From Rhodopirellula sp. SM50 (GTDB taxonomy: Bacteria > Planctomycetota > Planctomycetia > Pirellulales > Pirellulaceae): DNA of 64,000 nt. The position numbers were made by a program, and so were the translations under genes. The notes beneath the pieces were generated by a model, which saw only the letters and a list, made by a program, of their open reading frames with translations, made no database searches and was not told the DNA's origin. Below are positions 16,616-50,785 of the stretch, piece by piece (position 1 is the stretch's first letter; every line of letters begins with the position of its first letter). The DNA lies in assembly GCF_002289565.1 (NCBI RefSeq), contig NZ_NTFY01000076.1:1-64000 (forward strand), in the 5' to 3' direction.

Positions 16616-17743
16616 TCAGCTTTTCTTCTTCAGCGTCATCATGTATTCCACGATGTCGATCAAGCCTTGCCGGCCGGTGATGTGGTGCAGGTTTTCCGGC
16701 ATGATGGACTTGTCGCTTTTCTTGATGGTCACGATGTCTTCGGATGGAATCTTGCGATTGATCGCATCGGCCGTTCGGATCACCACTTCATCGGCGGTCT
16801 GCGAAATTTTTAGCCCCGTGATCACTTGGCCTTCTTCGGTCAACACGCTGAAATTCTCGTAGTTGTGGCTGATGCCGGCGCTGGGCGCCAAAACGGCCGT
16901 CAACATTGCTTCGCGCGAAAGCTTGGTTCCGATCTCCGACAGATTGGGGCCGACGTCCTTGCCGTAGTTGTTGACGATGTGACAGTTGGCACAAGTCCCT
17001 GCGCCGCGAAACAGTTTCTCGCCTGCGGTGACATCCCCGGTCATCTTGGCCAGTTCGTCGATCGGGGGTAGCGGTTGAGAATCTTTTTGGGCCGGCTGCG
17101 GCAACACGTTCGCGGCGGCGTTGCGAATGCCGCCATCCTTGCTGCGCGCCAACAACGCGCCGGCAATCAGGAAGGTGTCGCCGACCAGCGTTTTCTCAGT
17201 CGCTAAATCGATCAACCGTTTTTCACCGTCTTTGGTTCGCGCCAACCCGGCGACGGCGGCGCGGCGCTGATCGTAGGGACGCTCGGCATCGGTCGCGACC
17301 TCGGACAGAAAATGATTGGCGCGTCCGTTACCGAGTAACCCGAGCGTTTCGATCACGCCGCGGGCTTGGTCGGGCGAGGCAAGCAAGTCGCGGATTTCTC
17401 GTCGTCCGGCATCGAGTTCCAACAACAACTCCGCCGATTCCACCGCCGCCGATCGATCGTCACCGACCAGCGCCACCGTCAGTTGCGATTCAATACCATC
17501 GGGTTTGAAACGTTTGACCAGTTTCATGAATTCCGGCGTGCCCTCGCTGCGCCGGATCTGCCGCATGACAGCGTCGGCCACTGCGGGATCGGAGCGGTAG
17601 TCGTAGTCATCGATCCGCTCGATCGCGCGCACGACGATGGCGTCTCGACGAGCCTGCGCGGCATTGTCGGCAGCAGGCGTGTCGGTTGGCGCGGTGATGA
17701 GGCACAGGAAGGCGATGGTCAGAATCAACGCGTGAAGTTTCAT
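16616..17743 (-). CDS. HEAT-repeat haem-binding protein (Planctomycete type)
   Basis: This is a 375-residue exported protein. The ATG at 17743 gives the signal peptide MKLHALILTIAFLCLITAP. Residues 40-230 are short helical repeats of HEAT type. From about residue 240 comes the putative haem-binding region known from Pirellula/Verrucomicrobia proteins: GEKLFRGAGTCANCHIVNNY, KDVGPNLSEIG, a mid-domain VLTEEGQVITGLKIS and a late PENLHHITGRQGLIDIVEYM. It follows the 1126-residue dehydrogenase gene after 53 bp on the same strand. It supplies exactly the haem module that protein lacks, so I infer an operon and an electron-transfer complex. Confidence 0.88.
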   Translation of the reverse strand: MKLHALILTIAFLCLITAPTDTPAADNAAQARRDAIVVRAIERIDDYDYRSDPAVADAVMRQIRRSEGTPEFMKLVKRFKPDGIESQLTVALVGDDRSAAVESAELLLELDAGRREIRDLLASPDQARGVIETLGLLGNGRANHFLSEVATDAERPYDQRRAAVAGLARTKDGEKRLIDLATEKTLVGDTFLIAGALLARSKDGGIRNAAANVLPQPAQKDSQPLPPIDELAKMTGDVTAGEKLFRGAGTCANCHIVNNYGKDVGPNLSEIGTKLSREAMLTAVLAPSAGISHNYENFSVLTEEGQVITGLKISQTADEVVIRTADAINRKIPSEDIVTIKKSDKSIMPENLHHITGRQGLIDIVEYMMTLKKKS

Positions 17744-17796
17744 CGGGGGTGGGCAGAGTGGTGGAATGAAATGGGGGATCAACGAAGCCAAGACGT

Positions 17797-20700
17797 TCAG
17801 GGAAGCAGCCGTTTCAAAGCGGCGCTTCGGATGTCCGAATCATGGAATTCGAGACTGCGAAAGTATCGATCCGTTTCACGCAACGGTCGGTTCGGATCGG
17901 CGATCAATGAGACCATGGCGTCTGCCGCTTTGGGGGCCCGGATTCTCCAGACCAGGTCTCGGCCGGCCGCCGTATCCCAGCGGCCGTCGACGGCATCCAG
18001 GTAGGCTTCGAAACAGGCTTCGGGGCGAATGTCGCTTCCGATCCCGAGGGCTTCCAGATACCAGCGGTCCTGGCCGTCATAGGCCGTTGCCAGTTTGGTC
18101 CACAGCGTCGGCATGGTGTCGCCGGTGTCGTAGCGGAGCGCGACGGCCAACTCGCGTCGCACCGCCGGCGATGGATCGTCGGCCGCGTCGGCCAGCCATT
18201 GAGACGGTTGGTCTGTCAGCTGCTTGGCCAAACGGATCGCCGTGACGCGAAGGTCTGGATTGGGATCGGCCAGCGCCTTGGCTACATAGTGCTCTCCGCG
18301 TCCGTCGATCTTACCGAGCAACCACAGCGCACGGGCTTGCAGCCGCGGATTGGAATCAGCGTAGAGTTTCAGCAACTCGGGTTCGGCATCGCGGCCCATC
18401 GCGTGCAGCGTTCTCCAGGCTCGCGAGCGGACGGCCAGGTTCGGGTTTCGCAGCGCTTCGACCGCACCGCCGGCGGTGGTGAAGTCGAACGTCGGGATGG
18501 TGTAAGCCGAGCCGGGAGGTGCCAGTCGAAACAGCCGTCCCCGGTCCGAGTCGCCTTGATTGTGTCCTCCCACGCCGGGATCGTACCAATCGGTCACGAA
18601 CAGCGAACCGTCCGGAGCGGTGCAGACATCGGCCGGTCGGAACCAGCGGTCGGTGGTTCCCGTCATCAATGGCTCGATCGTCGCGGTGTATCCGGCGCCG
18701 TCGGGTTTGGCGGGGTAAGCGCGGACGATGTTGGGGCCGGGGTCGCAGTGGATGATCTGGTCCCAAAATCGTTGCGGCAACAACCGGCCTTCGTAAAAGC
18801 AGATGCCGCTGGGCGAGCCGGCACCGGTTTGCAGCATATTGGGGACGACACCGGGATCGTTCAGGTGCCAGTGGCGGTGCATGATTTCGTCTTCTTGATT
18901 GATCCGTTCCTCGCGCCAGCCGCCGCCGGTGATTTCATCGCGATAACCGTAGTTGCCGTGTTCCATCACAAAGTTGATTCGCGTGCCGCGGTTGCCGTCA
19001 TCGTCGTTGTCACTTTGCCAGAGTGTGCCGAACGAATCGACGGTGGTTTCCCAATTGTTGCGAAAGTTGTGCGCCAGGACTTCGAAATTGGAACCGTCCA
19101 GATCGCATCGAAACGGCATGCCGCCGTACAGCGGTGCTCCGTTGTCGATGACGGGGCGGCCGTGAATGTCGATGACCGTTTCGCCATTGGAGTCTTTGAC
19201 TTGCTCGCCGGTGTTGCCGAAGTTCCAGTAGAGTTTTCCGTCGGGGCCGAACAGGAACGAATGGCCGGAGTGGTCGTGTTGGGGGTTGCCGACTCCGGTG
19301 AACATCGCGGTCTTGCTGTCCGGCACGTCATCGCCATCGGTATCGACGAAACGCCAGACGTTGGGCGAGGCGGTGACGATGACGTCGGTGCCGGTCGCGT
19401 TTTCGAGTACGCAGATGCCCATCGCCGAATCGATGTCGCGGCCTTGGTAAAACGTTTTTGCATCGTCCATGACTCCATCGCCGTCGGTGTCCTCCAGGAT
19501 CATGATCCGATCACCTTCGGGGCGTGCGCCTTGATTGCGTCGATAATTCATCACGTCGCAGACCCAAACGCGTCCGCGCGAATCGATATCCAGGTTGGTC
19601 AGGCTGCGGAGCAGCGGCTCACTGGCCGCCAGGGTGGCTTCCAGACCTGCGGCGATCGTGATCCCTTTGATCGCGTTGGCTGGGTCGCGCTGGTCGCCGT
19701 CGCTGGAGTTGTCCGGGGCGCTGCCCAGGGACGCCGGTGCGGCGCCGGCGTACACGGCCAATCGGACGCTCGTGCTGGTGCCGCCGTTTTGACGCGTTCC
19801 CCCGGTGTCCAGGGCGCCGGTCACCGTCAGTCGCGTGTAGCCCTCTGGGACCTTGAATTGGATGACGCTGTTGGCGTGGGTCCCGATGGCGTGTTTTCCG
19901 ATCACCTGGCCGTCGACCGACCAGGGGGCTCCGCTGCAGTTGAGATCCTTGCGAACGCTGCCCCAACCTGTCGTCGCGGAGTGCCATCCCAAGTCGACCA
20001 GTGACAGCGATCCGGCAGGACCGTGCAGGGTCGGGGCCACCCAGTCGACCCAATCGCATGCGAATCCATCACCGCCGTCATCGACGATGAGAAACAAGTC
20101 CGACACGCCAGCGATCGACGTATCGATTTCGACGCGGTGGCGTTTCGTTTGGCTGGTCAGCGTGCCGGAAAGGAAGATCGGTTTGGCGGAGTCAGTCGAC
20201 TTTTTTTTTTGCGCCGTCAATTGAAACCGCTTGGCGGTTTCTTCTTCATCAAAATCATCGGGTCGCTCGTAATCTTGGTCTTCCAACAGACGTTTGATTC
20301 CGATCGGTTCTTTGCCCAACGAGGAGCCCTCCGGACCAATGGTTTCACCCGCGGTCCAGAGGATCGCGTTGGTCACCAAACGTCGCACGTCGTCGTTGCC
20401 CCAGTTCCAATGGTAGTGTCCGCCGGTGAAGCCAAAGGAACGGCCGCCGTCGGGTCGATCGTAAGCCCAGGCGACCGTTTGGGGTTCGCCCGCGGCAACA
20501 CTCTTGCGAACATGGGGATTTCCATGGTGCGGCCCGTCGGGACGTTTCATGGTGTGATCGGGGGCGACCGCGGCCAGGATCGGCGTCACTTTCCCGAGTT
20601 CTGTAAACCGCAGGTGGAAGTACCACTCGTCGTCCGTTGCGAACGGCTCGACGCCGCGTGTGATCGGATGGTCGGGCAGCGACTTGAATTCCGCCACCCA

Positions 20701-21177
20701 ATGCGGATTGACGCTGTAGTTGATTTCGAAGTGGCCGCCGAGAAGCTCTTCCCAGTCTTTGCCGGGTTCACCCGGAACCATCTCGACCGCGTAGTGCAAG
20801 CACACCAACCCCGTTCCTTCGCCGAGACGTTGACGCAGCTGGTCTCGATGGTCCATCGCGACGTGCCGTCTGCCGCCGTCGCAGTAAATGACGATGGTGT
20901 CGGCGGCGGCGACTTGTTCATCCGAAGGCCAGCCGCGAACGAGCGTGACCCGAGCGGTGTCGCTGCTCTGTTGGATCGCGTCTTGCAGAATGCGCAGCCC
21001 CGCAAAGTGTTCATGGGCGCCGAATCGGTGCGACGGCGGGCCGGCGACCATCAGGATCTGTTTGGTCTCCGCGTCCGCGTCCGCGGCAACCGAGGACGTC
21101 GTCATCACGCCAAGGGAGAGGCAGAGCGACAGTGGAGCCAGAAGGAGCAACAGCCAAGACCGATGTCGACACATCAT
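17797..21177 (-). CDS. Secreted ThuA-NPCBM-PVC dehydrogenase-HEAT protein without a haem domain
   Basis: This is a 1126-residue protein. GAGG at 21187-21190, nine bases upstream, favours the ATG at 21177; the signal peptide is RHRSWLLLLLAPLSLCLSLG. Residues 40-290 form a ThuA-like domain (GPPSHRFGAHEHFAGLRIL, FGFTGGHYHWNWG). Residues 350-490 form an NPCBM-like lectin domain (VDLGWHSATTGWGSVRKDLN, IGTHANSVIQF). Residues 510-900 form the PVC-type membrane-bound dehydrogenase propeller (GRVWVCDVMNYR, DTDGDGVMDDAK). The last 200 residues are HEAT repeats. It ends at KRLLP with no CxxCH, whereas the usual architecture continues into a haem domain. That domain is encoded by the next gene. Confidence 0.88.
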   Translation of the reverse strand: MMCRHRSWLLLLLAPLSLCLSLGVMTTSSVAADADAETKQILMVAGPPSHRFGAHEHFAGLRILQDAIQQSSDTARVTLVRGWPSDEQVAAADTIVIYCDGGRRHVAMDHRDQLRQRLGEGTGLVCLHYAVEMVPGEPGKDWEELLGGHFEINYSVNPHWVAEFKSLPDHPITRGVEPFATDDEWYFHLRFTELGKVTPILAAVAPDHTMKRPDGPHHGNPHVRKSVAAGEPQTVAWAYDRPDGGRSFGFTGGHYHWNWGNDDVRRLVTNAILWTAGETIGPEGSSLGKEPIGIKRLLEDQDYERPDDFDEEETAKRFQLTAQKKKSTDSAKPIFLSGTLTSQTKRHRVEIDTSIAGVSDLFLIVDDGGDGFACDWVDWVAPTLHGPAGSLSLVDLGWHSATTGWGSVRKDLNCSGAPWSVDGQVIGKHAIGTHANSVIQFKVPEGYTRLTVTGALDTGGTRQNGGTSTSVRLAVYAGAAPASLGSAPDNSSDGDQRDPANAIKGITIAAGLEATLAASEPLLRSLTNLDIDSRGRVWVCDVMNYRRNQGARPEGDRIMILEDTDGDGVMDDAKTFYQGRDIDSAMGICVLENATGTDVIVTASPNVWRFVDTDGDDVPDSKTAMFTGVGNPQHDHSGHSFLFGPDGKLYWNFGNTGEQVKDSNGETVIDIHGRPVIDNGAPLYGGMPFRCDLDGSNFEVLAHNFRNNWETTVDSFGTLWQSDNDDDGNRGTRINFVMEHGNYGYRDEITGGGWREERINQEDEIMHRHWHLNDPGVVPNMLQTGAGSPSGICFYEGRLLPQRFWDQIIHCDPGPNIVRAYPAKPDGAGYTATIEPLMTGTTDRWFRPADVCTAPDGSLFVTDWYDPGVGGHNQGDSDRGRLFRLAPPGSAYTIPTFDFTTAGGAVEALRNPNLAVRSRAWRTLHAMGRDAEPELLKLYADSNPRLQARALWLLGKIDGRGEHYVAKALADPNPDLRVTAIRLAKQLTDQPSQWLADAADDPSPAVRRELAVALRYDTGDTMPTLWTKLATAYDGQDRWYLEALGIGSDIRPEACFEAYLDAVDGRWDTAAGRDLVWRIRAPKAADAMVSLIADPNRPLRETDRYFRSLEFHDSDIRSAALKRLLP

Positions 21178-21400
21178 TTCGAAAAGCCTCACGAGGCGGG
21201 CGGGGCGGGAAGCGGGCGGAGCGTAGCGATCCGACGGCACCGCATTAACGGCGCCGCAACCGCCCTAGTCTAGCAACAACCGTCGGAGCGGGGGAGCCAG
21301 TACTCAGTACCCAGTACCCCCAACCTGAAACCGATCCCCCCACACCCGCATTTCCTGCGTTGTGGTTGACTTTGGGGGCGTGATGGGTTCGAACTAATGC

Positions 21401-26707: not shown

Positions 26708-29700
26708 TCACTCGCCGAAGACGACGGCCTGGTACAGGTGGAACGTGCCTTTGCCGTCCAAACCGATCCGGATGTATTGCCCCTTGGTGTCTGCGGGGAA
26801 ATCGATCATCCACTCGCCCTTGAGTTTGTCGGCTTTCCAGACCTGGTCGTACGACTGGCCATCCATGCTGACCCAGACCGTCAGCCCTTCGGCTCGGGAG
26901 TAGAACTGCTGGGACAAACGGTTTCGCAGCAACAGGTGTTTGAGCGTCGCGGGTTCCTTCAGCCGAAGGGTGACGTAAGGCGACTGCACGTCGTGGTCGC
27001 TGTGGAAGGCGAAATCGAATCCCTCGCGGCCGACGGGCGTCAGCAACAGGTGGGGGTCGGAGTTCCAGGTGCCGTTGCCAAAGTTCCGTCCCAGTTTGAT
27101 GGCTGCATCGTGAGAGATTTCGGGCACGCCGTTGTGCGACCGCAGTTTCGGCTCGGTGCGGTACTTGGCACTCGTCCATCCGCCACGCTGTGACAGCTTG
27201 CTGATCGCACGTTGCGAGGACAGGTAGGCGAGCAGGTCCAATACTTGGATCGGCGCGATTTGTTTGACCAATCCTTCGGGCATCGAACTGGCCTTCATCG
27301 GTTTTTCGATCTCGATGTCGTCCAGGGGAATATCGACCTGTTTGCCGTTGGCGATTCCCAGCGAAAGGGTGTCATCGGTTTTTGCGATCACAAATCCGTT
27401 GAAGGTATCGCCGTCGACGGTCAGGATATTGACCGTCTCGTAGCCTTTGCTGATCTCGGCATTGGGCATCACGATCGAGCGGATGATTTTTTCTTTGTCG
27501 AACCGCGATCCGATATCGGACAGGTCCGGTCCGAACTTCTTGCCCAGGTCGCCGATCTGGTGACAGGCCGAGCAGACTTGTTTGAACACGTCTTCCCCAC
27601 GGCCGGCGTTTCCACCGCGCAGCCCGGCCAGGGTTTTGATGGCCGCGTTTCGGTCCGCTTCGGATGCATCGACGTCATCGGCGATTTCAAGCGGGATGAC
27701 GGCAGCGCCGCCAGGGCCTGCCATGCGTTGGAATCGCAAGAAGTAATTCTTGGCTTGCTCGGAACTGTTGGCCAGGAAGTTGTCGGATTTTTGAGCTTCC
27801 GACCACGCCGGTTCCAGCGCGTGCAAGGTGTGTTCGAGCGTGTAATCGATCCAGTAGTCGACCGGATGATCGGTCACCGCCAACGCCAATTCGGTCGCGT
27901 CGGGGGTGTCCAGGAAGCTGATTCCGCGCAGGGCTTCCAGTCGAACACGCGGGTGCGGATCGGAAGTTGCGGCTGCCAGATAGTCGTGGGCGGCATCGAT
28001 CCGCAGAATTTCGTTGGTGACGGTATGAATGGCCGCGGCGCGGGCTCGATAGTCGTTCGATGCCAAGACGCGGTCGATCAGATCCGTGTCGACGCTTCGA
28101 AAGCTCTCTTGAATCCACATCGCTTCACATAGCCGTCGTGGATCCTCCGTGTCGGCGATCCAGTTCGCAATCGCTGCCAACACGTTGTCTTGCGGGCGGT
28201 CGCGCAAGACGCGTCGCACCCGATAGCGGGTGCGCAGTTCCGGCACCAGCAGCTGATCGAGCAATTCGACTTCGCTGAGCTGGGTCAAATCGACGATCGG
28301 TAACAACGGTTTGTTCTTGTTGACCAGACGATAGACACGGCCGTGCGTGTGGTCTCGGTTGGGGTCCCGTTGGGAGTACTGCATGTGACCGATCAACGCG
28401 TTGCACCAGTCGCCGAACCAAACCGCTCCATCGGGTCCGATTTTGGGATCGACGGGGCGAAAGATCATGTCGGTCGAGGACAGCAGGTCGGCGACCCGTT
28501 CGCCCTCGTAGCCCGCGCCGTCGCTTTCGTAACGAAGGTTGAATCGCGGCATGCCGTGCATATTGATCACGCAGGCATAAATGAATTGTCCCTGCATCTC
28601 GTCGGGCAGATGTCGTGACAACAGGAACTCGTTGCCGACGGCCGGACGCATGCCCTCGTTATCAAAGACCGGTCGGAGCGTCTTGCGGGTGTCGACCTCT
28701 TTGCCGGCCAGCGGGGCGATCCAATGTTGTTTCGCGTTTGTCCCGTCGCCGACGATCCCGTTGCCCCACTCGTCAAAGACCAGGCACCAGGGGTTCCCGT
28801 AACCCGGTGTGCGATAGTGGAGGACCCGTTGCGAGATCGGATCGAAAACGTAGGCACCGGCGGTGCTCTTGTTGCGGAACGGACCCCAGGGCGTTTCCAG
28901 CGTGGTCGACAGCGAGACGCCTTCGAGCATGTGCAACTGGCCGCCGTGGGAAAACTCCCAGGCGCCCATGGTGTGGTGCGTGTCATCGGTGGCGATGCCG
29001 TCGATCAATTGAATCACTTCATCGGCTTGGTCATCACCGTCGTTGTCCTTGAGAAACAGGATTCGCGGTTCGTCCACCACCAGAACGCCGCCGTCATAGA
29101 ACTCGAATCCGGTCGGGCAGATCAGCTTGTCGTAGAATGTCTTGCAGACGTCCGCTTTGCCATCGCCGTCGGTGTCTTCGAAGATCAACAGCCGGTCGTT
29201 CGGCGGCGCCGCGCCCGGTTGCCATTGCGGATAGTTGGCCATGCACGAGACCCACAAGCGGCCCTTGGCGTCGAAGGCGATTTGATTGGGATTGGCCAGT
29301 TCGGGGAATTCACGTTCGGACGCGAACAGTTGGACTTCCATCCCGTCGGGAACCGTCATCATGTCGATCGATTCTTCGGGCGTCGGATAAACGAGTTGCT
29401 GCGGTTCTCGCATCTTGCGAAAGTTCTCGTCACGCGTTCCGAACATCGTTTCGGGGGTGACGACCTCGCCGGTGCCGGAGTCGTCCGGCCGGTCGGCGAC
29501 AGGTTTGCCCTGGGCCAGATCCCAAATGTATTGGTCTCGTACGGCGACCATCTCTCGAATCTTGCGGTATTCGCTCGGGAAGGTCTCGGTGTCCCAGGTG
29601 CGGCGACCGCCGTAGACGTACCAGCCGTTGAGCATCCGGTAGTCTTGCAGGTGTAGCCACGATTTGTCGTTGACCCACTTTTGCACCAACTGAAACTGGT

Positions 29701-30439
29701 CGTCGTCGAACGATTGCGAATCGCTGAAGAGCGCGCGATCGAGCAATTGCGACACCCAGCGGTCACCGCGTTCGTTCAGATGCAGCCCGTTGATGGTGTA
29801 TTGGGTTCCCGGTTCGGCGTCAAAGGCTGCTTTGGATTCGCTGAACAGGTCGACGAACGGCAGGTTTTCTTCGGCAGCGAGTTTTTCGATGGCGTCGCGG
29901 TAGATCTTCATCGCCGCGTTCCGCTCGCCGGCATCGGGATGCAGGGGATGGCCGGTGGATTCAAACGCGATCGGGCTGACGAGCACGAATTGCGCTTTGC
30001 CGCCGGAATAGATCGCGTTCATCTGGGACAAATAGTCGCGATAGGCAGCGACAAAGGCGGCGACGGTCGCGTCGTCGGTGCCGGCGTAAGATTCGTTGGC
30101 GCCGAAGAAACACAGGTAGGCCTCGGGGCCAAAGACGGCCAGTGGATCGTCGATCTTGGTGTAGCTGCCCGGCCGCTGGCGGTTGCCGACTTCATCAGCC
30201 GGCCAACAGAAATTACGGAACCGGATGTTCGTGCCAGCGTGCCGCAACTGCAGTCGGGTTTCAAAGTTCCCGTACAGGTTCATCCGCTCGCCGAGCGAGT
30301 TGCCGACCAGTGCCAGTTTGATTCCCTCCCGCAGCTGCAGTGCGGGGGATTCCGCCGATGCGATCGGGGACGCGATAAACAGCTGGCATGCGGCCAGAAA
30401 GACGGAGAGGGATGCCGAGAGATAGCCGAGACGTCTCAT
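26708..30439 (-). CDS. Secreted SGNH-PVC dehydrogenase-HEAT-haem protein
   Basis: This is a 1243-residue exported protein with a signal peptide at residues 1-29. Residues 38-250 are an SGNH hydrolase-like domain: block I LVGNSLGERM with Ser48, RNFCWPADE, CFFGANES and INGLHLNERG. Residues 340-760 are the PVC-type membrane-bound dehydrogenase propeller (VQLFASEREFPELANPNQIA, EDTDGDGKADVCK). HEAT repeats follow to about 900. A haem domain has VFKQVCSACHQIGDLGKKFG at about 955. The last 150 residues are a beta-sandwich resembling a discoidin-like module. All parts sit in one chain, the complete version of the two split systems in this window. It is divergent from the YdcF gene. Confidence 0.88.
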   Translation of the reverse strand: MRRLGYLSASLSVFLAACQLFIASPIASAESPALQLREGIKLALVGNSLGERMNLYGNFETRLQLRHAGTNIRFRNFCWPADEVGNRQRPGSYTKIDDPLAVFGPEAYLCFFGANESYAGTDDATVAAFVAAYRDYLSQMNAIYSGGKAQFVLVSPIAFESTGHPLHPDAGERNAAMKIYRDAIEKLAAEENLPFVDLFSESKAAFDAEPGTQYTINGLHLNERGDRWVSQLLDRALFSDSQSFDDDQFQLVQKWVNDKSWLHLQDYRMLNGWYVYGGRRTWDTETFPSEYRKIREMVAVRDQYIWDLAQGKPVADRPDDSGTGEVVTPETMFGTRDENFRKMREPQQLVYPTPEESIDMMTVPDGMEVQLFASEREFPELANPNQIAFDAKGRLWVSCMANYPQWQPGAAPPNDRLLIFEDTDGDGKADVCKTFYDKLICPTGFEFYDGGVLVVDEPRILFLKDNDGDDQADEVIQLIDGIATDDTHHTMGAWEFSHGGQLHMLEGVSLSTTLETPWGPFRNKSTAGAYVFDPISQRVLHYRTPGYGNPWCLVFDEWGNGIVGDGTNAKQHWIAPLAGKEVDTRKTLRPVFDNEGMRPAVGNEFLLSRHLPDEMQGQFIYACVINMHGMPRFNLRYESDGAGYEGERVADLLSSTDMIFRPVDPKIGPDGAVWFGDWCNALIGHMQYSQRDPNRDHTHGRVYRLVNKNKPLLPIVDLTQLSEVELLDQLLVPELRTRYRVRRVLRDRPQDNVLAAIANWIADTEDPRRLCEAMWIQESFRSVDTDLIDRVLASNDYRARAAAIHTVTNEILRIDAAHDYLAAATSDPHPRVRLEALRGISFLDTPDATELALAVTDHPVDYWIDYTLEHTLHALEPAWSEAQKSDNFLANSSEQAKNYFLRFQRMAGPGGAAVIPLEIADDVDASEADRNAAIKTLAGLRGGNAGRGEDVFKQVCSACHQIGDLGKKFGPDLSDIGSRFDKEKIIRSIVMPNAEISKGYETVNILTVDGDTFNGFVIAKTDDTLSLGIANGKQVDIPLDDIEIEKPMKASSMPEGLVKQIAPIQVLDLLAYLSSQRAISKLSQRGGWTSAKYRTEPKLRSHNGVPEISHDAAIKLGRNFGNGTWNSDPHLLLTPVGREGFDFAFHSDHDVQSPYVTLRLKEPATLKHLLLRNRLSQQFYSRAEGLTVWVSMDGQSYDQVWKADKLKGEWMIDFPADTKGQYIRIGLDGKGTFHLYQAVVFGE

Positions 30440-35849: not shown

Positions 35850-35855
35850 AAAGGT
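35850..35855 (+). promoter_or_regulatory. Ribosome-binding site deciding the secretin start
   Basis: AAAGGT lies about 8 bases before a GTG at 35863. The GTG start gives a typical signal peptide (HRLKTVVTPVAVGLRRALSL). The alternatives at 35764 and 35791 lack a good Shine-Dalgarno and add a non-conserved leader. Confidence 0.5.
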
Positions 35856-35862
35856 GTTGCCC

Positions 35863-38800
35863 GTGCACCGTTTGAAAACCGTTGTCACCCCCGTCGCCGT
35901 CGGTCTCAGGCGAGCGCTGAGTCTAAAGCTGGTCGCGGCGATTGCCGTTTCGACCGCTTGTGCCCAATCGCCACAGTATCGTCCGTCTCAGGTCGTCCCC
36001 GGCAGCGCGCCGTCGCGAATGCCGTCGATGGACGCCGAAGCCTACCAGCGGTATGTGCAGCAGTCGGTGCAGGGAACGACCGGCGCGGCTGCCCATTCGA
36101 TGATTCGCACGGTTGCCGCGACCACTCCAGCCACTTCGATCGGTGATTCTCCGCAACTGCGTAAACTGGCCGTGCCGGCGGCCCACGCCGACGCGATCGC
36201 GACGACGCTCAGCCTGCGATACCAAGATCTGCCGGGCATCACGATTTCACCTGACCCGGCGAACAGCCAATTGGTGATCATGGCTCCGGCCAAGACCCAG
36301 GCGGTGATCGCATCGCAGGTCAAAACACTCGTCGCCGGTGCGGTTCGCCAAGCATCCTCGGTGACCGCCAGCCCCGTCAGCGTGCGACTGCAGAACATTT
36401 CCTGGCGCGAGTTCGAGCGCGACTTGAAGCAGGCCGCCGGACAAGATGTTCCGATGACGACCCGCAACAACGGCAATCAGGTGACGTTCCAGATGAACGT
36501 GCCTCCGATGCAGGGGACGTTGGTCGAAGTGGACCGCCGACAAAACCAAGTCACCGTCCGGGCACCCGATCCCGCCATCCCCGGTTGGGAAAAAATGATT
36601 CGTGCCCTCGACCGAGTGCCCAATCGCTACGACGACGTCACCCAAGTGCACCGATTGCAACAAGCCGACATGGCACCGGTGCAACGCACCATGCGATTGC
36701 TCCGCGCACTCCGCGGCGATGGGATGTCCAATTCCAATCCCGGTGTGTTTCGCAATGCGGTGATGCAAGCCGATCAGGGCAGTGCACCGGGCGCGGGTGA
36801 TCAGGGCGGATTGCCCGCCGACGTGGAAGCCGCCATCGAAGGGGCCGGTCCGCTGGGTGATGTGCAAATCGAATACGTTCCGGAACTGGGCCAGATCATC
36901 GTCAAGGGAGCGACCCGAGACGTTCAACGCGTGATGGAATTGATCAAGGAGATCGAATCCAAAGCAGAACTGACCCAGCCCGATTCGAAGGTCGTCGCGC
37001 TCGAGCACGCCGATGCCAACGCGGTCGCGGAACTGTTGACTCAGCTCTACGACGACGTGCTGTCGACTCGCCAAGGCGACGTCAGCATTACCTCGCTGGA
37101 CAGCCCCAACGCATTGTTGTTGATCGGTCGCGCCGAAGCGATCGCGTCGCTGGAAGAACTGATCAAAAAGATCGACCAGCCGGTGGAAGAAGCCAGCCGG
37201 TTGCGTGTGTTCCGATTGCAGAACGCCTCGGCCGTGGACGCTCAAGATGCGATTTTGACCTTCTTCAGCAACCGACCCGGGATCGAAGAAGACGTTCGCA
37301 ACGGCTTGGGACCGCGTGTTCGAATTTCGGCCGACTACCGCACCAATTCGCTGATCGTCAGTGCCGCGCCGCGTGACATGACCGAGGTCACTCGGTTGAT
37401 CAACGAACTCGACGTCGAAAAGACTCCGGCGACCAGTGAGTTGCGAGTTTTCCAGCTCAACAACGCCGTTGCCGAAGATCTGGCCACCACGCTTCAAGAC
37501 GCCTTCGCGGCCGGCGAAGTCGCCACCGCCGGCGATGCCACCGCACCGTCGACCTCGCTCTCGATCCTGACGGTCGACAGCGACGAGCGACGGATGGTGG
37601 AGTCGGGCATCTTGGCCGGAGCCACGATCACCGCGGAAACGAATTCGAACTCGATCGTCGTTCGCGCCCCTTCCTCGAGCATGCCGCTGATCGCGGAACT
37701 GATCCGACAATTGGACAAAGCCCCCGGCATTGACTCGCTGGTGAAAGTGTTCACGATCGAAAACGGTGACGCGGCTCAGTTGGCCGCCTCGTTGGAGACC
37801 CTGTTCGGGTCCGACGCAGCGACCAGCGGAACCAGCGTCGGTGGTGCAAACGCCGCCGGATTGCCTTCGGCCACCGCGTCCGCCGACAGCTCGCTTGTGC
37901 CGCTGCGTTTCTCGACCGACATCCGTACCAACAGCATCGTGGCCAGCGGATCGTCGTCGGACTTGGAAGTCGTCGAAAGCATCTTGCTGCGACTCGATAG
38001 CGAAGGGTTCGCCGAACGGATCACCGAAGTGATTTGGCTGAAGAACAACGAAGCGACGTTGGTCGCCGCGGCGATCACCAACTACGTCAACGAGCGTCAA
38101 CAGTCGCAAACCACGATCCAGCAATACCAACAAGGTCTGGGCCCCTACGATCTTCTCGATCGCGACATCGTGGCGATCGCCGAAGAGAACTTCAACAGCA
38201 TCCTGTTGAGCGTCTCGCCGCGGCTGTACGAAGAAGTTCGATTGCTGATCGAGCGACTCGACCGTCGACGCCCGATGGTGCTGATCAAGGTGTTGTTGGC
38301 TGAAGTGTCTTTGGAGGATTCGTTTGAGATCGGCACCGAACTCGGGTTGCAGGACTCACTCGCCTTCAGCCGTGGTCAAGCCGCCGGAGCCTTTGGGAGC
38401 ACGCTCGATCCGGGCGATCCGGGATTCAATTTTAACAACGCGGGTGTCTCAAACTCGAATGACTTTGGACAAGGCAATCTGGCCGCCAGCACGGTGTCGA
38501 CCTTCGGCCTTGGACAGAGCAACACGGCCATCGGCTACGGTGGATTCGTGCTCAATGCCGCCAGCGATTCCGTCAGCCTGCTGTTCCGAACACTGCAAGA
38601 AGCCAATCGTGCGCAAATCATCAGTCGTCCACAGTTGATGACGGCTGATAACACGGAAGCACTGATCAACGTTGGACGCCAAATCGCAAGATTTCGCGGC
38701 AGCACGGTTACGAACAATAATGTGACGCAAAACATCGAGGACATCACCGTCGGATTGATTCTGAACATTCGTCCGAGAGTGGGAAGTGACGGTACGATCT

Positions 38801-39528
38801 TGATGGAAGTGAACGTCACACGATCCGATCGTGACGAAGGAAGTGGAACGGACGTGCCCGATGGTGCTGGCGCAACCGTTCGGATCGACGACATCGTCGA
38901 TACAACCGCTCAGGCGACGCTCTCTGTGCTCAGCGGCCAAACTGTGATCATGGGGGGGCTGATTCAAAAGAATCGTACCAACAGAAGTCGCCGTCTTCCC
39001 TACTTGTCTAGCATTCCGCTCTTGGGCAACCTCTTCAAGTATGACTACGAAACTGAACGTCGTAGCGAGCTGCTTGTCGTGTTGACGCCGATGTTGGTCA
39101 CCGGCGAACAGGACTTGGAGTACATCAAGCAAACCGAGTCGAGCCGGATGAGTTGGTGCTTGGCCGACGTGGTGGAGGCTCACGGCGACGTGGGCCTGAG
39201 CGGCGGCTACGGATTGTGGGGGCCGGCGATCGGCCCGACGATCTATCCCGACGTGCACCCGACGATCGACGGAGAAGTCGTCGTCGGCGAACTGCCCCCG
39301 GGTGTGATCACCGACCAGAACAAGCCTGTCGTCGGTCAGCCGGCCGGCGAATCGATTCTGAATCCGACGTTCGGAACCGAAAACCTGGCACCGGCCAACC
39401 GCAGCGATTCACTGCCCGCACCGCGGCCCGATGTGAACCAGTCTTCGTTCCAGAGGCCCGCCGGCATGATCGGCAGCGAAGCCGACCAGACCCTGCCGGC
39501 CGGTTGGGTCAACCAAGTCAGCCAGTAA
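35863..39528 (+). CDS. Giant secretin (GspD/PilQ-like)
   Basis: This is a 1221-residue outer-membrane secretin, nearly twice the length of GspD. After the signal peptide (RALSLKLVAAIAVSTACAQ), residues 80-850 hold a long series of NolW/secretin_N-type repeats, recognisable by the recurring IxxLDxxxE pattern (LIKKIDQPVEEASRL, LIRQLDKAPGIDSLVKV, LIERLDRRRPMVLIKVLLAE). The secretin beta-barrel follows: RAQIISRPQLMTADNTEALI, then VLSGQTVIMGGLIQKNRTNR and LPYLSSIPLLGNLFKYDYET. It ends in a Pro/Gly-rich tail. It should form the export channel for type II secretion or pili. No other secretion ATPase or pseudopilin operon gene adjoins it. A start at 35764 is possible. Confidence 0.9.
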   Translation: MHRLKTVVTPVAVGLRRALSLKLVAAIAVSTACAQSPQYRPSQVVPGSAPSRMPSMDAEAYQRYVQQSVQGTTGAAAHSMIRTVAATTPATSIGDSPQLRKLAVPAAHADAIATTLSLRYQDLPGITISPDPANSQLVIMAPAKTQAVIASQVKTLVAGAVRQASSVTASPVSVRLQNISWREFERDLKQAAGQDVPMTTRNNGNQVTFQMNVPPMQGTLVEVDRRQNQVTVRAPDPAIPGWEKMIRALDRVPNRYDDVTQVHRLQQADMAPVQRTMRLLRALRGDGMSNSNPGVFRNAVMQADQGSAPGAGDQGGLPADVEAAIEGAGPLGDVQIEYVPELGQIIVKGATRDVQRVMELIKEIESKAELTQPDSKVVALEHADANAVAELLTQLYDDVLSTRQGDVSITSLDSPNALLLIGRAEAIASLEELIKKIDQPVEEASRLRVFRLQNASAVDAQDAILTFFSNRPGIEEDVRNGLGPRVRISADYRTNSLIVSAAPRDMTEVTRLINELDVEKTPATSELRVFQLNNAVAEDLATTLQDAFAAGEVATAGDATAPSTSLSILTVDSDERRMVESGILAGATITAETNSNSIVVRAPSSSMPLIAELIRQLDKAPGIDSLVKVFTIENGDAAQLAASLETLFGSDAATSGTSVGGANAAGLPSATASADSSLVPLRFSTDIRTNSIVASGSSSDLEVVESILLRLDSEGFAERITEVIWLKNNEATLVAAAITNYVNERQQSQTTIQQYQQGLGPYDLLDRDIVAIAEENFNSILLSVSPRLYEEVRLLIERLDRRRPMVLIKVLLAEVSLEDSFEIGTELGLQDSLAFSRGQAAGAFGSTLDPGDPGFNFNNAGVSNSNDFGQGNLAASTVSTFGLGQSNTAIGYGGFVLNAASDSVSLLFRTLQEANRAQIISRPQLMTADNTEALINVGRQIARFRGSTVTNNNVTQNIEDITVGLILNIRPRVGSDGTILMEVNVTRSDRDEGSGTDVPDGAGATVRIDDIVDTTAQATLSVLSGQTVIMGGLIQKNRTNRSRRLPYLSSIPLLGNLFKYDYETERRSELLVVLTPMLVTGEQDLEYIKQTESSRMSWCLADVVEAHGDVGLSGGYGLWGPAIGPTIYPDVHPTIDGEVVVGELPPGVITDQNKPVVGQPAGESILNPTFGTENLAPANRSDSLPAPRPDVNQSSFQRPAGMIGSEADQTLPAGWVNQVSQ

Positions 39529-45611: not shown

Positions 45612-45873
45612 GTAGGGGCGTCGGCGTTGGGAACGCCGCAAAGCAATTTGCGTCGTTGGGAAAGGCTTTTGCGTCACTCCGGCGACGGGACATTGCGTGG
45701 GTGTCACAAAACGCGACGGATTATCGCCTAATCGTTGTGAGAATCTTCGATACTCCGCGCAACCGACGGATTCTTCGCTACCGTCTTGGGGGGCGGCAAT
45801 GCATAATATCACGCCGTTCTTATCGGACCTTTTCCCACCCCAAGCTTCCCACCAACCGATCTCTCTACCAACA

Positions 45874-48576
45874 ATGAATCGACCCATCCGGATGTTTGCT
45901 TTGGCCGCTTCGGCGGCGCTGGCTTGCCTGCTGTTTTCCAACGCCACCCTCGCCGCCGATCTGAAACTGCAAAAAGGCGACCACATCTGCCTGGTCGGTA
46001 ATGCTCTGGGTGAGCGGATGCAGGTTCAAAATGAATGGGAAACCCTGTTGCACACCCGTTTTCCCGAACTGCAATTGGTGGTGCGAAATCTGTGTTTTCC
46101 CGGTGACGAACCCTACCTGCGGATTCGTTCGAAAAACTTCGGTGATCCGACCAGCCACCTGACGCACAGCCAGGCTTCGGTGGTGATGTATTTCTTCGGA
46201 TACAACGAGTCGTTTGCCGGCGAGAAAGGTCTCAAGCAATACAAGTCCGACCTGACCAAGCTGGTCACGGAGACGAAGACGGCGGACTACGGCAAGGGAC
46301 GCCCGCAAGTCGTCTTGGTGTCGCCGATCGCGTTCGAAGGCTCGGACGATCCGAATCTTTCTGACGGCAAAGAACAAAATAGAAACTTGGCACTGTACAC
46401 CGAAGCGATGTCGGACGTCGCATCGCAAACCGATGTCGTCTTCGTCGATTTATTCACGCCGACCCGGGCGCTGTTCGAAAAATCACCGCAGCGTTTGACG
46501 ATCAACGGGTTTCACTTGAACGACGTCGGATACGAAAGGTTGGCGCCGATCTTGGACCAGGCATTGTTCGGCAACAAGCTCGCCGCGGCGATCAATCCGG
46601 ATCTGAAGAACGAGATCGACGACAAAAACTTTCACTGGTTCCATCGCTATCGCGCCGTCAACGGGTTTTCCATCTACGGTGACCGTGGCTTGGCGGGGCA
46701 AGACGGAGACCGCAAGTACAACAACCGCGTCGTGATGGAACGTGAACGCGCGATTTTGGACGAGATGACGGCGAATCGCGACGCCCGCGTTTGGGCGGTC
46801 GCCGCCGGCAAGCCGGTCCCGAAGACCATCGATGACTCCAATACACTGCCATTCCTCAACCCCACCACGAACGTCGGCACGCCGAACGACCGAAATGCCA
46901 AAGCCGGCAAGCTCGGATCGCTGGAGTACCTGCCCGCCGCCGAGCAAATCAAATTGTTCGATTTGGCCGACGGTTATGAAATCCAGTTGGTCGCATCGGA
47001 AGAACAATTCCCCGAGTTGTCCAACCCGGTCGCGCTGAACTTCGATAGCAAGGGACGATTGTGGGTCGCGACGATGAAGTCGTATCCGCACTGGAAACCC
47101 AAGTCCCCGATGAACGACAAACTGTTGATCTTTGAAGACAATGACGGCGACCATGCGGCCGATGTCTGCAAAGTGTTTGCCGAGGGTTTGCATCAACCCA
47201 CAGGATTCGAACTCGGCCACGGCGGCGCCTACGTGTCTCGCCAGCCCGACATCTGGTTCATCAAAGACACCGACGGTGATGACAAAGCCGACGTGGTGAC
47301 GCGACAATTGATCGGTTTCGATTCGGCCGACTCGCACCACGGCATTGCGGCCTTTGAATGGGGCCCCGGTGGCAACCTGTACTTCGAAGAAGGCACCTTC
47401 AAGTTCTCGGCCGTGGAATCACCCTACGGCGTGCGTCGATTGGCCGAGGCCGGGATCTGGAAATACAATCCCCGAACCGAACGTTTGGACGTTCACGCCT
47501 CGTTCGCGTTCGCCAACCCCTGGGGTTACTGCTACGACAAATGGGGACAAGACTTCATCGGTGACGCATCACCCGGAAACGCGTATTGGGCTGCTCCGAT
47601 CAGCGGTCATGTCGAGTATCCCAACAAGCACCCCGGCGGCAGCCAACACCGACGTGTCGCGTCGATGGCCGGCGGAGACCCCACTTACAAATTCCCGACG
47701 TTCTATCCCAAACGGATTCGACCGTTGGCCGGATGTGCGATCGTCTCCAGTCGCCATTTTCCCGACGACATGCAAGGCAACTTCCTGGTCACCAACGTGA
47801 TCGGTGAACGCGCGATTCTGAACCACAAGATCACGCCCGCGGAAAACGGCAGCGGTTTTGTCGGCGAGGAAGTCGAGATGCTGCTCTCGTGTCGCGACGG
47901 CAATTTCCGACCCGTCGATCTCCAGTTCGCCCCGGACGGCTCGCTGTACATCGTCGACTGGCACAACGCCTTGATCGGTCACTTGCAACACAACCTGCGC
48001 GATCCCAGTCGCGATCATTCCCACGGTCGCATCTGGCGCGTCACGCACAAGGAACGTCCGTTGTTGCAGCCCGCCAAGATCGATGGCGCGACGATTCCCC
48101 AATTGCTGGAATTGCTGAAGTCACCCGAAGACCGAACACGTTATCGGGCACGACGTGAATTGGCCGCACGCGACAGCGGACCGGTGTTGAAGTCGCTCGA
48201 CGCCTGGGTGGCCGGCTTGGACGGATCGGATCCCAACGTCGAACATCAGCAAATGGAAGCCCTGTGGATGTACCAAACGCACAACCAGGTGCGGACCGAT
48301 TTGCTGGATAAGCTGTCGGCTTCGGAGAACGATCGAGCCCGTGCGGCATGTGTCCGGTTGACGTCACACATGATGCACGCGATCCCCGATCACGCCGATC
48401 GATTCGCAAAAGCCGTTCACGATGAGCATCCGACGGTTCGCTTGGAAGCCGTTCGTGCGATCAGTTTCCTCGAAGGAGACGATGCGATCGAAATGGTCCT
48501 CGGCGTGCTGGAACACGACATGGACGACTACTTGCAGTACACGCTCGATGAAACGATGCGTCAACTGGAACAGTAG
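45874..48576 (+). CDS. Secreted SGNH-like PVC dehydrogenase without haem domain, Ser replaced by Ala
   Basis: This is a 900-residue exported protein. The ATG at 45874 gives the signal peptide MNRPIRMFALAASAALACLL. Residues 35-240 form an SGNH-like domain related to that at 26708-30439, but block I is LVGNALGERM: Ala44 stands where the nucleophilic Ser48 of the paralogue sits. RNLCFPGDE, YFFGYNES and INGFHLNDVG are kept. The dehydrogenase propeller spans about 360-720 (VQ-type start IQLVASEEQFPELSNPVALN, IFEDNDGDHAADVCK). HEAT repeats then run to the end (YLQYTLDETMRQLEQ). The protein stops where the paralogue goes on to its haem domain. Confidence 0.88.
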   Translation: MNRPIRMFALAASAALACLLFSNATLAADLKLQKGDHICLVGNALGERMQVQNEWETLLHTRFPELQLVVRNLCFPGDEPYLRIRSKNFGDPTSHLTHSQASVVMYFFGYNESFAGEKGLKQYKSDLTKLVTETKTADYGKGRPQVVLVSPIAFEGSDDPNLSDGKEQNRNLALYTEAMSDVASQTDVVFVDLFTPTRALFEKSPQRLTINGFHLNDVGYERLAPILDQALFGNKLAAAINPDLKNEIDDKNFHWFHRYRAVNGFSIYGDRGLAGQDGDRKYNNRVVMERERAILDEMTANRDARVWAVAAGKPVPKTIDDSNTLPFLNPTTNVGTPNDRNAKAGKLGSLEYLPAAEQIKLFDLADGYEIQLVASEEQFPELSNPVALNFDSKGRLWVATMKSYPHWKPKSPMNDKLLIFEDNDGDHAADVCKVFAEGLHQPTGFELGHGGAYVSRQPDIWFIKDTDGDDKADVVTRQLIGFDSADSHHGIAAFEWGPGGNLYFEEGTFKFSAVESPYGVRRLAEAGIWKYNPRTERLDVHASFAFANPWGYCYDKWGQDFIGDASPGNAYWAAPISGHVEYPNKHPGGSQHRRVASMAGGDPTYKFPTFYPKRIRPLAGCAIVSSRHFPDDMQGNFLVTNVIGERAILNHKITPAENGSGFVGEEVEMLLSCRDGNFRPVDLQFAPDGSLYIVDWHNALIGHLQHNLRDPSRDHSHGRIWRVTHKERPLLQPAKIDGATIPQLLELLKSPEDRTRYRARRELAARDSGPVLKSLDAWVAGLDGSDPNVEHQQMEALWMYQTHNQVRTDLLDKLSASENDRARAACVRLTSHMMHAIPDHADRFAKAVHDEHPTVRLEAVRAISFLEGDDAIEMVLGVLEHDMDDYLQYTLDETMRQLEQ

Positions 48577-48650
48577 GTCTCGTGGATAGAGCCCGAATGG
48601 GGTTAACGCAGATTCTGCCACCCCGATGAGCGACGCTGTGCAGCATTTTT

Positions 48651-48723
48651 TTAGCGGAAGGGCGCGAGCCCTCCGGTGTTTCGGTAACGGTGAGGAACCG
48701 GAGGGCTTGCGCCCTGCCGCTAA
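48651..48723. repeat. Palindromic repeat, family B copy 5
   Basis: TTAGCGGAAGGGCGCGAGCC and CTCCGGT pair with ACCGGAGGGCTTGCGCCC and CCGCTAA. It lies in the 310-bp gap between the dehydrogenase and its proposed cupredoxin-cytochrome partner. GGCGGTGGTCGC / CTCGACCGCC follows at about 48770, as also seen after copy 3. Confidence 0.8.
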
Positions 48724-48886
48724 CACCATGTGGAACGCCGGAAACTAATTTTTCACAGCTGATCCGGCGGTGGTCGCTTCGCTCGACCGCCGGCTAATGG
48801 CTGCTATGCCTTCGGGATCTAGTTTTCGAAATCTAGGTCACACGCCAAGATACCACACCCCATCACTTTCACCTTTCATTCAAACC

Positions 48887-50785
48887 ATGCGTTTGCTTTC
48901 ACGCTTTTTCATCGTCGTCGTCTTGGTCCAGATCACCATCGTGGCCCCTTGTCTGGCAAAGGACGCCGAGCCACCGACAATCTTTTTAGACAAGTCGCCA
49001 CGCATCGTCGCGTATCAATTGGGGCGGCTCAACGACGAGCGTTTGTTGCTCGTTCCCCGATCAACGGACGACAAGAAGTACATCCCGGTCTATGAAGCCA
49101 TCGTGGGGCGACCGGCGATGGCGGCGGGCATTCGGGACGAAGCGTTTGCGGCGCTTGCGAAACTGAAAGACAGTTCGGTTGCGGCGGAAATGCTGGCGAC
49201 GATCACCAATTCGAAGAGGGACACCCCGGATGCGAGGCGATTGGTCGATCTGTTGACCGGGCTGATGTTAAAACGTTCCGCGGCGGAATTGACGGCGCTC
49301 CAGCCCATGCTGTCAGAGGTGGCCCGCGATGACGACCCCGCGCTGCGTTCGATCGCGTTGGCGGGACTGATCGTCGCCGGCGACACGGACACGGCGCGAT
49401 CGATCGCCGAATCGGACGCCGACGCCACCATCGCGATGCTGGCCGCCATCCGCAAATTGCCCAACAAAAAACTGAAAGTGGCTCAGCGTGACTACGCAGT
49501 GTCCCACTTCGAATCTGCCGATTCGCTCGACGTCAAACTCGCCGCGATCGACGCGTTGTCCCGCATTCCCGCCGATCAAGACGACACCTACCAGCGATTG
49601 ATCACTCAGGTCGATGATCCGGCAACGCGAGTCGCCGCCTGCCGCGGACTGATGCGACTGCCACCGTCCGTTTTTCAAGCCGACAGCTCACTCGAGGCCG
49701 CCGAAGCACTGGTTGCGTTCGCCGAAGCCACGCCGGCGGCCGAGCGGACGACCGACGCGTTCATCGACGCGATGCAGTTGGTCGATCGGCTGCTGACGAA
49801 GATCCCGCCACAGCAATCCCGATCATTGCGGAGCCGGCTTCGCGAAGTCACCGTCCGGGTCGTGAAGATCGGGACGGTCGAAGAAGAGATGCGTTACGAC
49901 GTTGCGTACTTTGCGGTCGAAGCCGGACGTCCGGTGCAGATTCTTTTGGAAAATCACGATCTGATGCCCCACAATCTTGTGATCACCCAGCCGGGCGCAC
50001 TCAAGGGAGTCGCGATGGCGGGGTTGGCGGCCGGCCCCGAAGGCAGCGGCGGATTGCCGTATGTCCCGGATTCACCCAACGTCATCGCGGCGAGCGAGAT
50101 GGTCGCGCCGGACAACTCGACACGAATCACTCTGACCGCTCCGTCGGAGCCGGGCGAGTATCCGTATGTCTGCACGTTTCCCCAACACTGGTATCGTATG
50201 TACGGCGTGATGGTCGTGGTCGACGACCTGGATGCCTGGAACCAAAATCCGGTCGAACCGGCCAATCCACTCGGCAGCACCCGCTCGTTCGTCCAAGCGT
50301 GGACATTGGAAGACTTCGCGGGGGACTTTGATTCAGACCTTCGCGGCCGTTCACCGGAGATCGGCGAAAAAGTCTTCAACGAAGCATCCTGTGTGGGATG
50401 CCACAAAATCAACAACGTCGGCGGCGCGGTCGGACCCGAACTGACCGACACCTATACCAAATGGAAATCGGATCACGTGGGGATCCTACGCGAGATCTTG
50501 GTCCCCTCGCACAAGATCGACAGCAAGTACGCGATGCAGATCATTCTGACCGTCGATGGCAAAACGCTGTCGGGCATCGTGGTCGATGAAAATGACGACA
50601 CCGTCACGTTGTTGACCAACCCCGAAGCCAAAGAACCGGTGATCATCCTGCAAGACGACATCGAAGTCATCAAACGCAGTGCAACATCGATGATGCCCAA
50701 AGCGTTGATGGACCAGTACACCAAAGACGAAGTGCTGGATTTGATGGCGTACTTGAAATCGGTCGACGAGGCGCGGGAGAAGTAG
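48887..50785 (+). CDS. Secreted HEAT-cupredoxin-cytochrome c fusion
   Basis: This is a 632-residue exported protein. Residues 1-24 are a signal peptide (LLSRFFIVVVLVQITIVAPC). Residues 30-320 are HEAT-like helical repeats. Residues about 325-450 form a type 1 blue-copper domain: His362 in DLMPHNLVITQPG, then Cys429, His434 and Met438 in YPYVCTFPQHWYRMYGVMVV, the full azurin/auracyanin ligand set. From 480 comes a Planctomycete-type haem domain with Cys502, Cys505 and His506 (NEASCVGCHKINNVGGAVGP) and the tail DEVLDLMAYLKSVDE. It is predicted to carry electrons from the haem-less dehydrogenase encoded 310 bp upstream. Confidence 0.9.
   Translation: MRLLSRFFIVVVLVQITIVAPCLAKDAEPPTIFLDKSPRIVAYQLGRLNDERLLLVPRSTDDKKYIPVYEAIVGRPAMAAGIRDEAFAALAKLKDSSVAAEMLATITNSKRDTPDARRLVDLLTGLMLKRSAAELTALQPMLSEVARDDDPALRSIALAGLIVAGDTDTARSIAESDADATIAMLAAIRKLPNKKLKVAQRDYAVSHFESADSLDVKLAAIDALSRIPADQDDTYQRLITQVDDPATRVAACRGLMRLPPSVFQADSSLEAAEALVAFAEATPAAERTTDAFIDAMQLVDRLLTKIPPQQSRSLRSRLREVTVRVVKIGTVEEEMRYDVAYFAVEAGRPVQILLENHDLMPHNLVITQPGALKGVAMAGLAAGPEGSGGLPYVPDSPNVIAASEMVAPDNSTRITLTAPSEPGEYPYVCTFPQHWYRMYGVMVVVDDLDAWNQNPVEPANPLGSTRSFVQAWTLEDFAGDFDSDLRGRSPEIGEKVFNEASCVGCHKINNVGGAVGPELTDTYTKWKSDHVGILREILVPSHKIDSKYAMQIILTVDGKTLSGIVVDENDDTVTLLTNPEAKEPVIILQDDIEVIKRSATSMMPKALMDQYTKDEVLDLMAYLKSVDEAREK

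Follow-up and report, generated by a model that had tools for sequence, protein, structure and literature searches.

The stretch of DNA analysed here, called the window in the following, comprises 64,000 nucleotides of the planctomycete Rhodopirellula sp. SM50 (NCBI RefSeq assembly GCF_002289565.1, contig NZ_NTFY01000076.1, positions 1 to 64,000 of the forward strand). Our subject is a pair of consecutive genes within it, designated A and B, that together carry the putative catalytic part of an oxidoreductase and the copper and haem centres by which electrons could leave it. A first-pass annotation, made from the sequence letters, had pointed out that A ends where a fused paralogue in the same window goes on to a haem domain, and both the coordinates and the domains behind that statement hold, the domains by Pfam and TIGR profiles. 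The features are collected in Table 1.

Table 1. Features of the A-B locus and its relatives within the window (pLDDT, predicted local distance difference test; pTM, predicted template modelling score; PQQ, pyrroloquinoline quinone; REP, repetitive extragenic palindromic).
Feature	Position	Strand	Description
Gene A	45874..48576	+	900 aa; SGNH-like domain, DUF7133/TIGR02604 propeller and HEAT; AlphaFold2 pLDDT 89.2, pTM 0.91
SGNH-like domain, catalytic motifs degenerate	46033..46539	+	A residues 54-222; Pfam PF13472
DUF7133 propeller	46939..48054	+	A residues 356-727; PF23500; fold like AA12/soluble PQQ sugar dehydrogenases
HEAT repeats, C-terminus of A	48301..48540	+	A residues 810-889; PF13646 (HEAT_2); model
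Intergenic gap	48577..48886	.	310 bp
REP-type palindrome	48644..48730	.	34-nt arms, 85% complementary
Gene B	48887..50785	+	start ATG 48887; 632 aa; helical part, cupredoxin and c-type haem
Type-1 copper domain	49862..50218	+	B residues 326-444; ligands H362, C429, H434, M438; PF00127
TIGR02603 haem domain	50360..50761	+	B residues 492-625; CxxCH 502-506; probable axial Met603
Fused paralogue	26708..30439	-	SGNH-DUF7133-HEAT-TIGR02603-F5/8C, without cupredoxin
Second split pair, enzyme half	17797..21240	-	ThuA-NPCBM-DUF7133-HEAT
Second split pair, haem half	16616..17791	-	TIGR02603

The open reading frame of gene A spans 45697-48576, with the ATG at 45874 as its likely start, and the signal-peptide-like beginning of the product, judged by eye, indicates that it is probably secreted. 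A belongs to the TIGR02604 family (223.4 bits, curated cut-off 122.2) and matched the profiles of DUF7133 (228.3 bits, cut-off 27) and of the SGNH domain (42.9 bits, cut-off 32.9). A reading of the sequence found no CxxCH motif in A, and its profile, compared with solved structures, matched HEAT-type and GDSL chains and no PQQ dehydrogenase. The SGNH fold was recovered by Foldseek, with acetylxylan and other GDSL esterases as matches, and the catalytic residues are largely gone: among 40 of the 58 A sequences, thinned by hand beforehand, the nucleophile (GDS) position was Ser in 2 and the Asp of the DxxH motif was kept in 3, while the His (38/40) and the block III Asn (36/40) persisted. With the Ser and the Asp mostly lost, the domain is unlikely to act as an esterase through the usual triad, and our guess is that it binds glycan instead of hydrolysing esters.

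The product of gene B, with a signal-peptide-like start of its own, is probably secreted as well. It had been described as a secreted HEAT-copper-haem protein, of which the copper and haem parts stood up, both profiles scoring above cut-off (PF00127, 34.4 against 21.2 bits; TIGR02603, 90.0 against 68.15 bits), and the HEAT label found no confirmation by profile, the helical part having no match in Pfam; a helical repeat in this part is suggested by the model of a fused homologue, among the weaker Foldseek matches of which are HEAT/ARM proteins. The four copper ligands, the CxxCH motif and the probable axial Met603 were invariant in 30 of 30 aligned sequences (30 of 40 copper-haem sequences, hand-thinned beforehand), and the copper ligand set, together with the fold, identifies a type-1 copper site. 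The nearest solved copper domain was that of auracyanin (6kol; profile E 1.1e-20; root-mean-square deviation (rmsd) 1.5 and TM 0.87 with the model of the fused homologue), whereas the azurin equivalog TIGR02695 was missed by far (35.6 against 105.1 bits); the nearest solved haem domain was that of Kustd1711 (7zs0; E 1.7e-28 over 136 profile positions). Type-1 copper and this kind of haem centre are as a rule high-potential, and for that reason electrons could plausibly flow downhill to B from the propeller once a substrate has reduced it.

As a separate observation on B, many orthologues outside the genus of the window carry a His-rich (HxHxH-like) stretch after the signal peptide (L044, L048, L051, L052, L092, L094, L097, L098, L100, L105 and L115; loci are numbered with L and genomes with G). 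It recurs in the linkers of the fused L046 and L047 and is missing from the B of the window. Over 41 rows its mean content is 2.9 His in 30 residues, where the composition of the protein body would predict 0.41; 22 of the 41 have at least three His, and some of the stretches counted extend into the signal peptide or the untranslated leader. It possibly serves copper loading.

The pairing of A and B was followed in two sets of genomes. In the first, 60 genomes (that of SM50 included) were searched with A and B, the regions were fetched and the domains were mapped by phmmer, with individual sequences of the window searched against stop-to-stop frames, a procedure by which distant domains can be missed; matches to B were listed down to about E 6e-23. 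An A orthologue (at least 55% identity) was present in 22 genomes and B in every one of these, the match covering nearly the whole query at 43% identity or more, except for 32% in G017. A lay directly before B on one strand in 18 of the 22, the two made up a single open frame in two (1543 aa in G041, 1551 aa in G025), and they lay apart in two. The adjacent arrangement was found in 13 members of the genus and in G017, G021, G026, G027 and G033; in G027 a contig break falls within A, the tail of which precedes B (L052). In the one remaining member of the genus, G008 (85% complete, 1210 contigs), a partial B lies where a contig begins, and no orthologue of A was found. The first-pass annotation had named the loss of linkage in most related genomes as the outcome that would defeat it; adjacency or fusion in 20 of 22 genomes, our own among them, is the opposite outcome.

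The second, named set came from a scan of genome contigs with an alignment of the copper-haem part, from which the best 80 of 586 confirmed loci were scored: 23 adjacent, 49 fused, 2 without A upstream and 6 unscorable. Within these best 80, the orthologue group L091-L117 (27 loci, at least 52% identity in the copper-haem part) accounted for 23 adjacent loci, 1 fused, 1 without A and 2 unscorable; the fused one, L099 of Rhodopirellula europaea 6C, is a 1605-aa frame in which Pfam recognised SGNH, DUF7133, HEAT, copper and haem. The other 53 loci (at most 45% identity) comprised 48 long fused chains, 4 that run off the contig and 1 without A upstream. The long chains follow the order SGNH-DUF7133-HEAT-...-cupredoxin-haem, some of them broken at contig ends. 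The counts of the two sets are not additive, as at least L091, L101 and L117 repeat G005, G027 and G033.

Among the less similar relatives of A, which fall outside its orthologue clade in the A tree, nine (L071-L073, L075, L076, L078, L081-L083) had a separate haem-only gene alongside. These haem partners, frames of 596-668 aa, showed no cupredoxin; a check with Pfam covered two of the nine. For another four of the less similar relatives (L074, L077, L079 and L080), no such gene was found in the stretch covered. We also noticed two tandem copies of A before one B in Blastopirellula sp. NORP48 (L048 and L117, the same sequence).

The history of the split was examined in three trees. In the B tree (49 rows after removal of 3 duplicates, of which 3 distant fused chains served as outgroup) the fused orthologues L046, L047 and L099 were scattered, and forcing them together cost 48.6 log-likelihood units (approximately unbiased (AU) test, p 0.018), a result that is possibly in part a long-branch effect, given the long branches of L049, L148, L047 and L108. 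The CUP-HEM tree (40 rows) required 3 label changes and the A tree (58 rows; short search, with the long branch L084) 14 changes among 5 states, and the two agree that the label changed repeatedly; such trees cannot separate fission from fusion. The highest hydropathy over 11 residues was -0.33, -1.28 and 0.92 in the linkers of L046, L047 and L099, respectively, compared with 3.1 at the start of the B of the window, and the hydropathy scan found no signal-peptide-like stretch in the linkers of L046 and L047, which fits either direction of change.

The second split pair of the window varies in the same manner. In 26 genomes with a ThuA-type head (E 1e-150 or better), the haem gene was separate and adjoining in 16, head and haem shared one frame in 7 (L186, L187, L193-L196, L198), and no haem gene lay in the short stretch covered in 3 (L177, L188, L189). 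As an observation on the head itself, in the congeners G012 (L183/L199) and G011 (L185/L201) the homologue of the 17797-21240 protein has its ThuA part in a frame of its own, through either a split in two places or a frameshift. From the trees and the variation of the second pair it follows that fusion or separation of the outlet half happened on more than one occasion, in two head lineages. The two split pairs and the fused chain that the first-pass annotation had placed within 35 kb are all real and occupy 34.2 kb. Its suggestion of a modular electron outlet has gained strong support from fusion in relatives.

Taken together, it is well supported that A and B are two halves of one electron-transfer unit. 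That they belong, more specifically, as subunits to a single periplasmic or secreted oxidoreductase, which also exists as one chain and from which electrons leave through B, we consider probable. What the sequences show directly is the domain content, the constancy of the metal ligands, the conservation of the pairing and the fusion in relatives; the propeller fold comes from a model. Where the two halves form one chain, the SGNH-like domain is followed by a quinoprotein-like propeller, a HEAT scaffold, the cupredoxin and, last, the haem. The propeller of A would most likely oxidise a sugar or sugar-like substrate, with the electrons presumably exiting through B by way of its type-1 copper and its His/Met haem, in one order or the other, to be passed on to a soluble high-potential carrier or a terminal oxidase. 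The surface on which the two proteins of the putative complex dock would probably be formed by their helical repeats, and the degenerate SGNH domain would most likely contribute glycan binding rather than ester hydrolysis.

The name dehydrogenase, which the first-pass annotation had given to A, has its basis in the fold. In VIA-align, the ranking of which covers the families in its list, the A propeller (model residues 353-726) aligned best with 6h7t (TrAA12; Z 27.0, rmsd 3.0, 305 residues), the 15 best rows, with Z 24.1-27.0, all belonged to AA12 or other PQQ-type sugar dehydrogenases, the fungal pyranose dehydrogenase CcPDH (6jt5) scored Z 26.3, and the six-bladed propeller of soluble glucose dehydrogenase (sGDH) and AA12 was recovered; fold alone is no proof of function. 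Three residues of sGDH have a kept counterpart: the catalytic His144 in H489 (39/40 homologues of A), Asn229 in N548 (40/40) and Arg406, which contacts PQQ, in R679 (39/40). The model of A from which the propeller was taken is a confident one. These equivalences, like that of Ala547 discussed below, were drawn from motif spacing and a weak paralogue alignment, the sole direct sequence alignment to sGDH (E about 0.1) having been obtained from the paralogue at 17797-21240. By its modelled fold A is likely, but unproven, to be a dehydrogenase. A literature search, with most subscription journals outside its coverage, found no assigned function for the TIGR02604 family.

A number of observations weigh against A and B forming one oxidoreductase. 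Regarding the propeller: i) hydrolase propellers of the DFPase and SMP30/gluconolactonase type reached Z 23.2-24.0, level with the lowest PQQ rows; ii) the dyad Arg (sGDH Arg228), thought important for PQQ catalysis, corresponds by the inferred equivalence to Ala547 in A and is Arg in 0/40 homologues; iii) Arg is likewise absent from the Arg408-like position (0/40); and iv) in 30 near genomes PqqC was not found (0/30), in a search without a control above cut-off, and PqqE did not exceed its cut-off (0/30), its weak matches in 30/30 genomes and 14/14 controls all lying below it. Regarding the pairing: A and B are unlinked in G019 and G029; for L116 the 2.2 kb upstream contain no A, and L148 has none upstream; and G018 and G038, both without an A orthologue of at least 55% identity, contain separate frames that match the copper-haem part of B only. 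In addition, the model of the fused chain has a pTM of only 0.68, and therefore no contact between domains can be read from it.

The observations on the propeller would suit a non-redox A, that is a metal-dependent lactonase/hydrolase or a binding domain, with B fed from elsewhere and the pairing serving localisation on a glycan or scaffold. We regard this as the strongest of the alternatives and still as rather unlikely, since the AA12 and PQQ dehydrogenases rank above the hydrolases and A retains the His144-like residue, the Asn and the C-terminal Arg. As to the missing Arg, the dyad Arg is reported to be about 94% conserved in fungal AA12 (PMC6881810) and to sit at O-5 of PQQ in CcPDH, and AA12 uses a different Arg at the Arg408-like position (PMC6881789). 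As to synthesis, the PqqC model matched in 9 of 294 genomes of a phylum sample and in 0 of 14 control genomes; one of the nine matches was above cut-off, and hence the model is able to find its target in the phylum. The absence of PqqC from the 30 near genomes is suggestive, not proof, that PQQ is not synthesised there, and use does not require synthesis: environmental PQQ is used by fungi and by E. coli, neither of which synthesises it (PMC6881810, PMC6881789).

The observations on the pairing would instead suit B as a general high-potential carrier that merely lies beside A and serves other enzymes, for instance other TIGR02604 proteins. This we hold to be improbable in view of the repeated A-B fusion (L046, L047, L099), the adjacency and complete co-occurrence in the first set, and the presence in the same genome of a fused copper-haem paralogue, L084. 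That the split is an artefact of assembly or sequencing of one fused gene, an idea to which the existence of fused orthologues lends some colour, is ruled out, as is a frameshift, by separate A and B frames with differing gap lengths in 12 further congeners.

The first-pass annotation had held the repeat in the gap between A and B to weaken the case for an operon. We found it to be a genome-wide REP-type element. The hairpin (-60.8 kcal/mol, z -7.6) contains a 17-base core with 708 matches in the genome (357+351) at no more than 1 mismatch, both palindrome arms counted, compared with 0 for the reversed control, and the genome has 8 Y1_Tnp matches, so that both the hundreds of copies and the RAYT-type (REP-associated tyrosine transposase) genes of a REP system are present; placement relative to genes was read for the copy in the gap. 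Because such an element has spread over the whole genome, its presence here is weak evidence against an ancestral operon. A Y1_Tnp gene was also seen downstream of the A-B pair in L100.

In relatives the gap has a median of 165 bp (range -32 to 620 bp; 40 pairs, of which 3 repeat a genome, with start codons picked by rule). The REP core was sought in 42 pairings, including two with a gap of 2962 in which A is the more distant of two tandem copies; these two did not enter the median. The core, present twice in the gap of the window, occurred in 0/42 at up to 2 mismatches, and the REP element as a common cause of the A-B gap was accordingly rejected. Other inverted repeats, exact over 12 nt, were present in 10 of the 42 pairings, and none was counted in the gap of the window, its arms being imperfect. 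A scan for intrinsic terminators found none within 48577-48886, no T-run following the REP hairpin, and a search with the sigma-70 consensus, which may not fit planctomycetes, found no promoter-like site in the gap. A second GC-rich palindrome at 48763-48796 has a fold z of -1.5, not clearly more stable than chance. The REP hairpin could lower or stabilise either half.

The fused paralogue of the window shares 39% identity with A, and its HEAT_2 (25.1 against 27.7 bits) and F5/8C (25.5 against 28.2 bits) matches fall just under cut-off. Lacking a cupredoxin, it is not the best comparison for A-B; the nearer fused counterparts are the orthologues L046, L047 and L099 and, in the same genome, L084 (G000:C67), a 1357-aa frame on a very long branch. 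Of the 22 TIGR02604 proteins above cut-off in the whole genome, 19 coincide in position and length with a frame that carries TIGR02603, and the remaining 3, two of them in the window, do not. Further out, the 10 neighbour genes that we picked by hand from 9 other loci included 5 that we read as carbohydrate-type (2 sulfatases, an alpha-amylase, an enolase-superfamily member and ThuA), 1 zinc alcohol dehydrogenase, 1 Y1 transposase and 3 without match; in this small, hand-picked sample the carbohydrate-type neighbours fit a glycan substrate. Elsewhere in the window, a secretin at 35764-39528 has seven Secretin_N stretches by Pfam, seemingly many.

On a wider scale we would tentatively propose, as a possibility short of an expectation, that A-B and its fused homologues represent copper-haem coupled glycan dehydrogenases that are widespread in planctomycetes and form a bacterial counterpart of the fungal AA12-AA8 enzymes, with the SGNH-like domain binding glycan, with scavenged PQQ or another cofactor used without the dyad Arg, and with repeated fission and fusion allowing the outlet to be shared or swapped among different heads. 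Fusion in relatives indicates which copper-haem protein works with which propeller. If the TIGR02604 proteins are dehydrogenases, they would constitute a periplasmic or extracellular route of sugar oxidation in bacteria with apparently no PQQ synthesis of their own.

Several known systems resemble A-B in part. The PSCyt/PSD proteins of Verrucomicrobia are multi-domain c-type cytochromes with carbohydrate-binding parts, often encoded near sulfatase genes and proposed to act in carbohydrate metabolism; their domains differ from those of A-B, and no propeller-cupredoxin pair is described for them in the accessible text (PMC5615132). The TIGR02604/TIGR02603 PVC-type haem-binding CxxCH proteins (DUF7133) have the two domains that A and B jointly possess above cut-offs, whereas in A-B these are on separate genes and a cupredoxin precedes the haem. 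The haem domain of B aligns with Kustd1711 of Kuenenia stuttgartiensis (7zs0), the alignment taking in both CxxCH and the SxMP-motif Met; Kustd1711 is a calcium-tuned dihaem cytochrome with haems at about +350 mV when calcium is bound (PMC11791136), for which the accessible text describes two haem domains and no copper domain or propeller. The copper domain of B is nearest to the auracyanin/azurin cupredoxins, with the His-Cys-His-Met ligands in common, and unlike these it is embedded in a multi-domain chain and fails the azurin equivalog. A further resemblance is to the fungal AA12 pyranose dehydrogenases such as CcPDH, in which an AA8 cytochrome b, an AA12 PQQ propeller of the same fold as that of A and a CBM1 follow each other. 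Both systems couple a propeller to a haem domain and a glycan-related part, and A keeps the catalytic-His motif; in A-B, in contrast, a c-type TIGR02603 haem and a type-1 copper take the place of the AA8 cytochrome b, an SGNH-like domain stands in that of CBM1, the dyad Arg is missing, the cofactor of A is putative, and the whole is divided over two genes.

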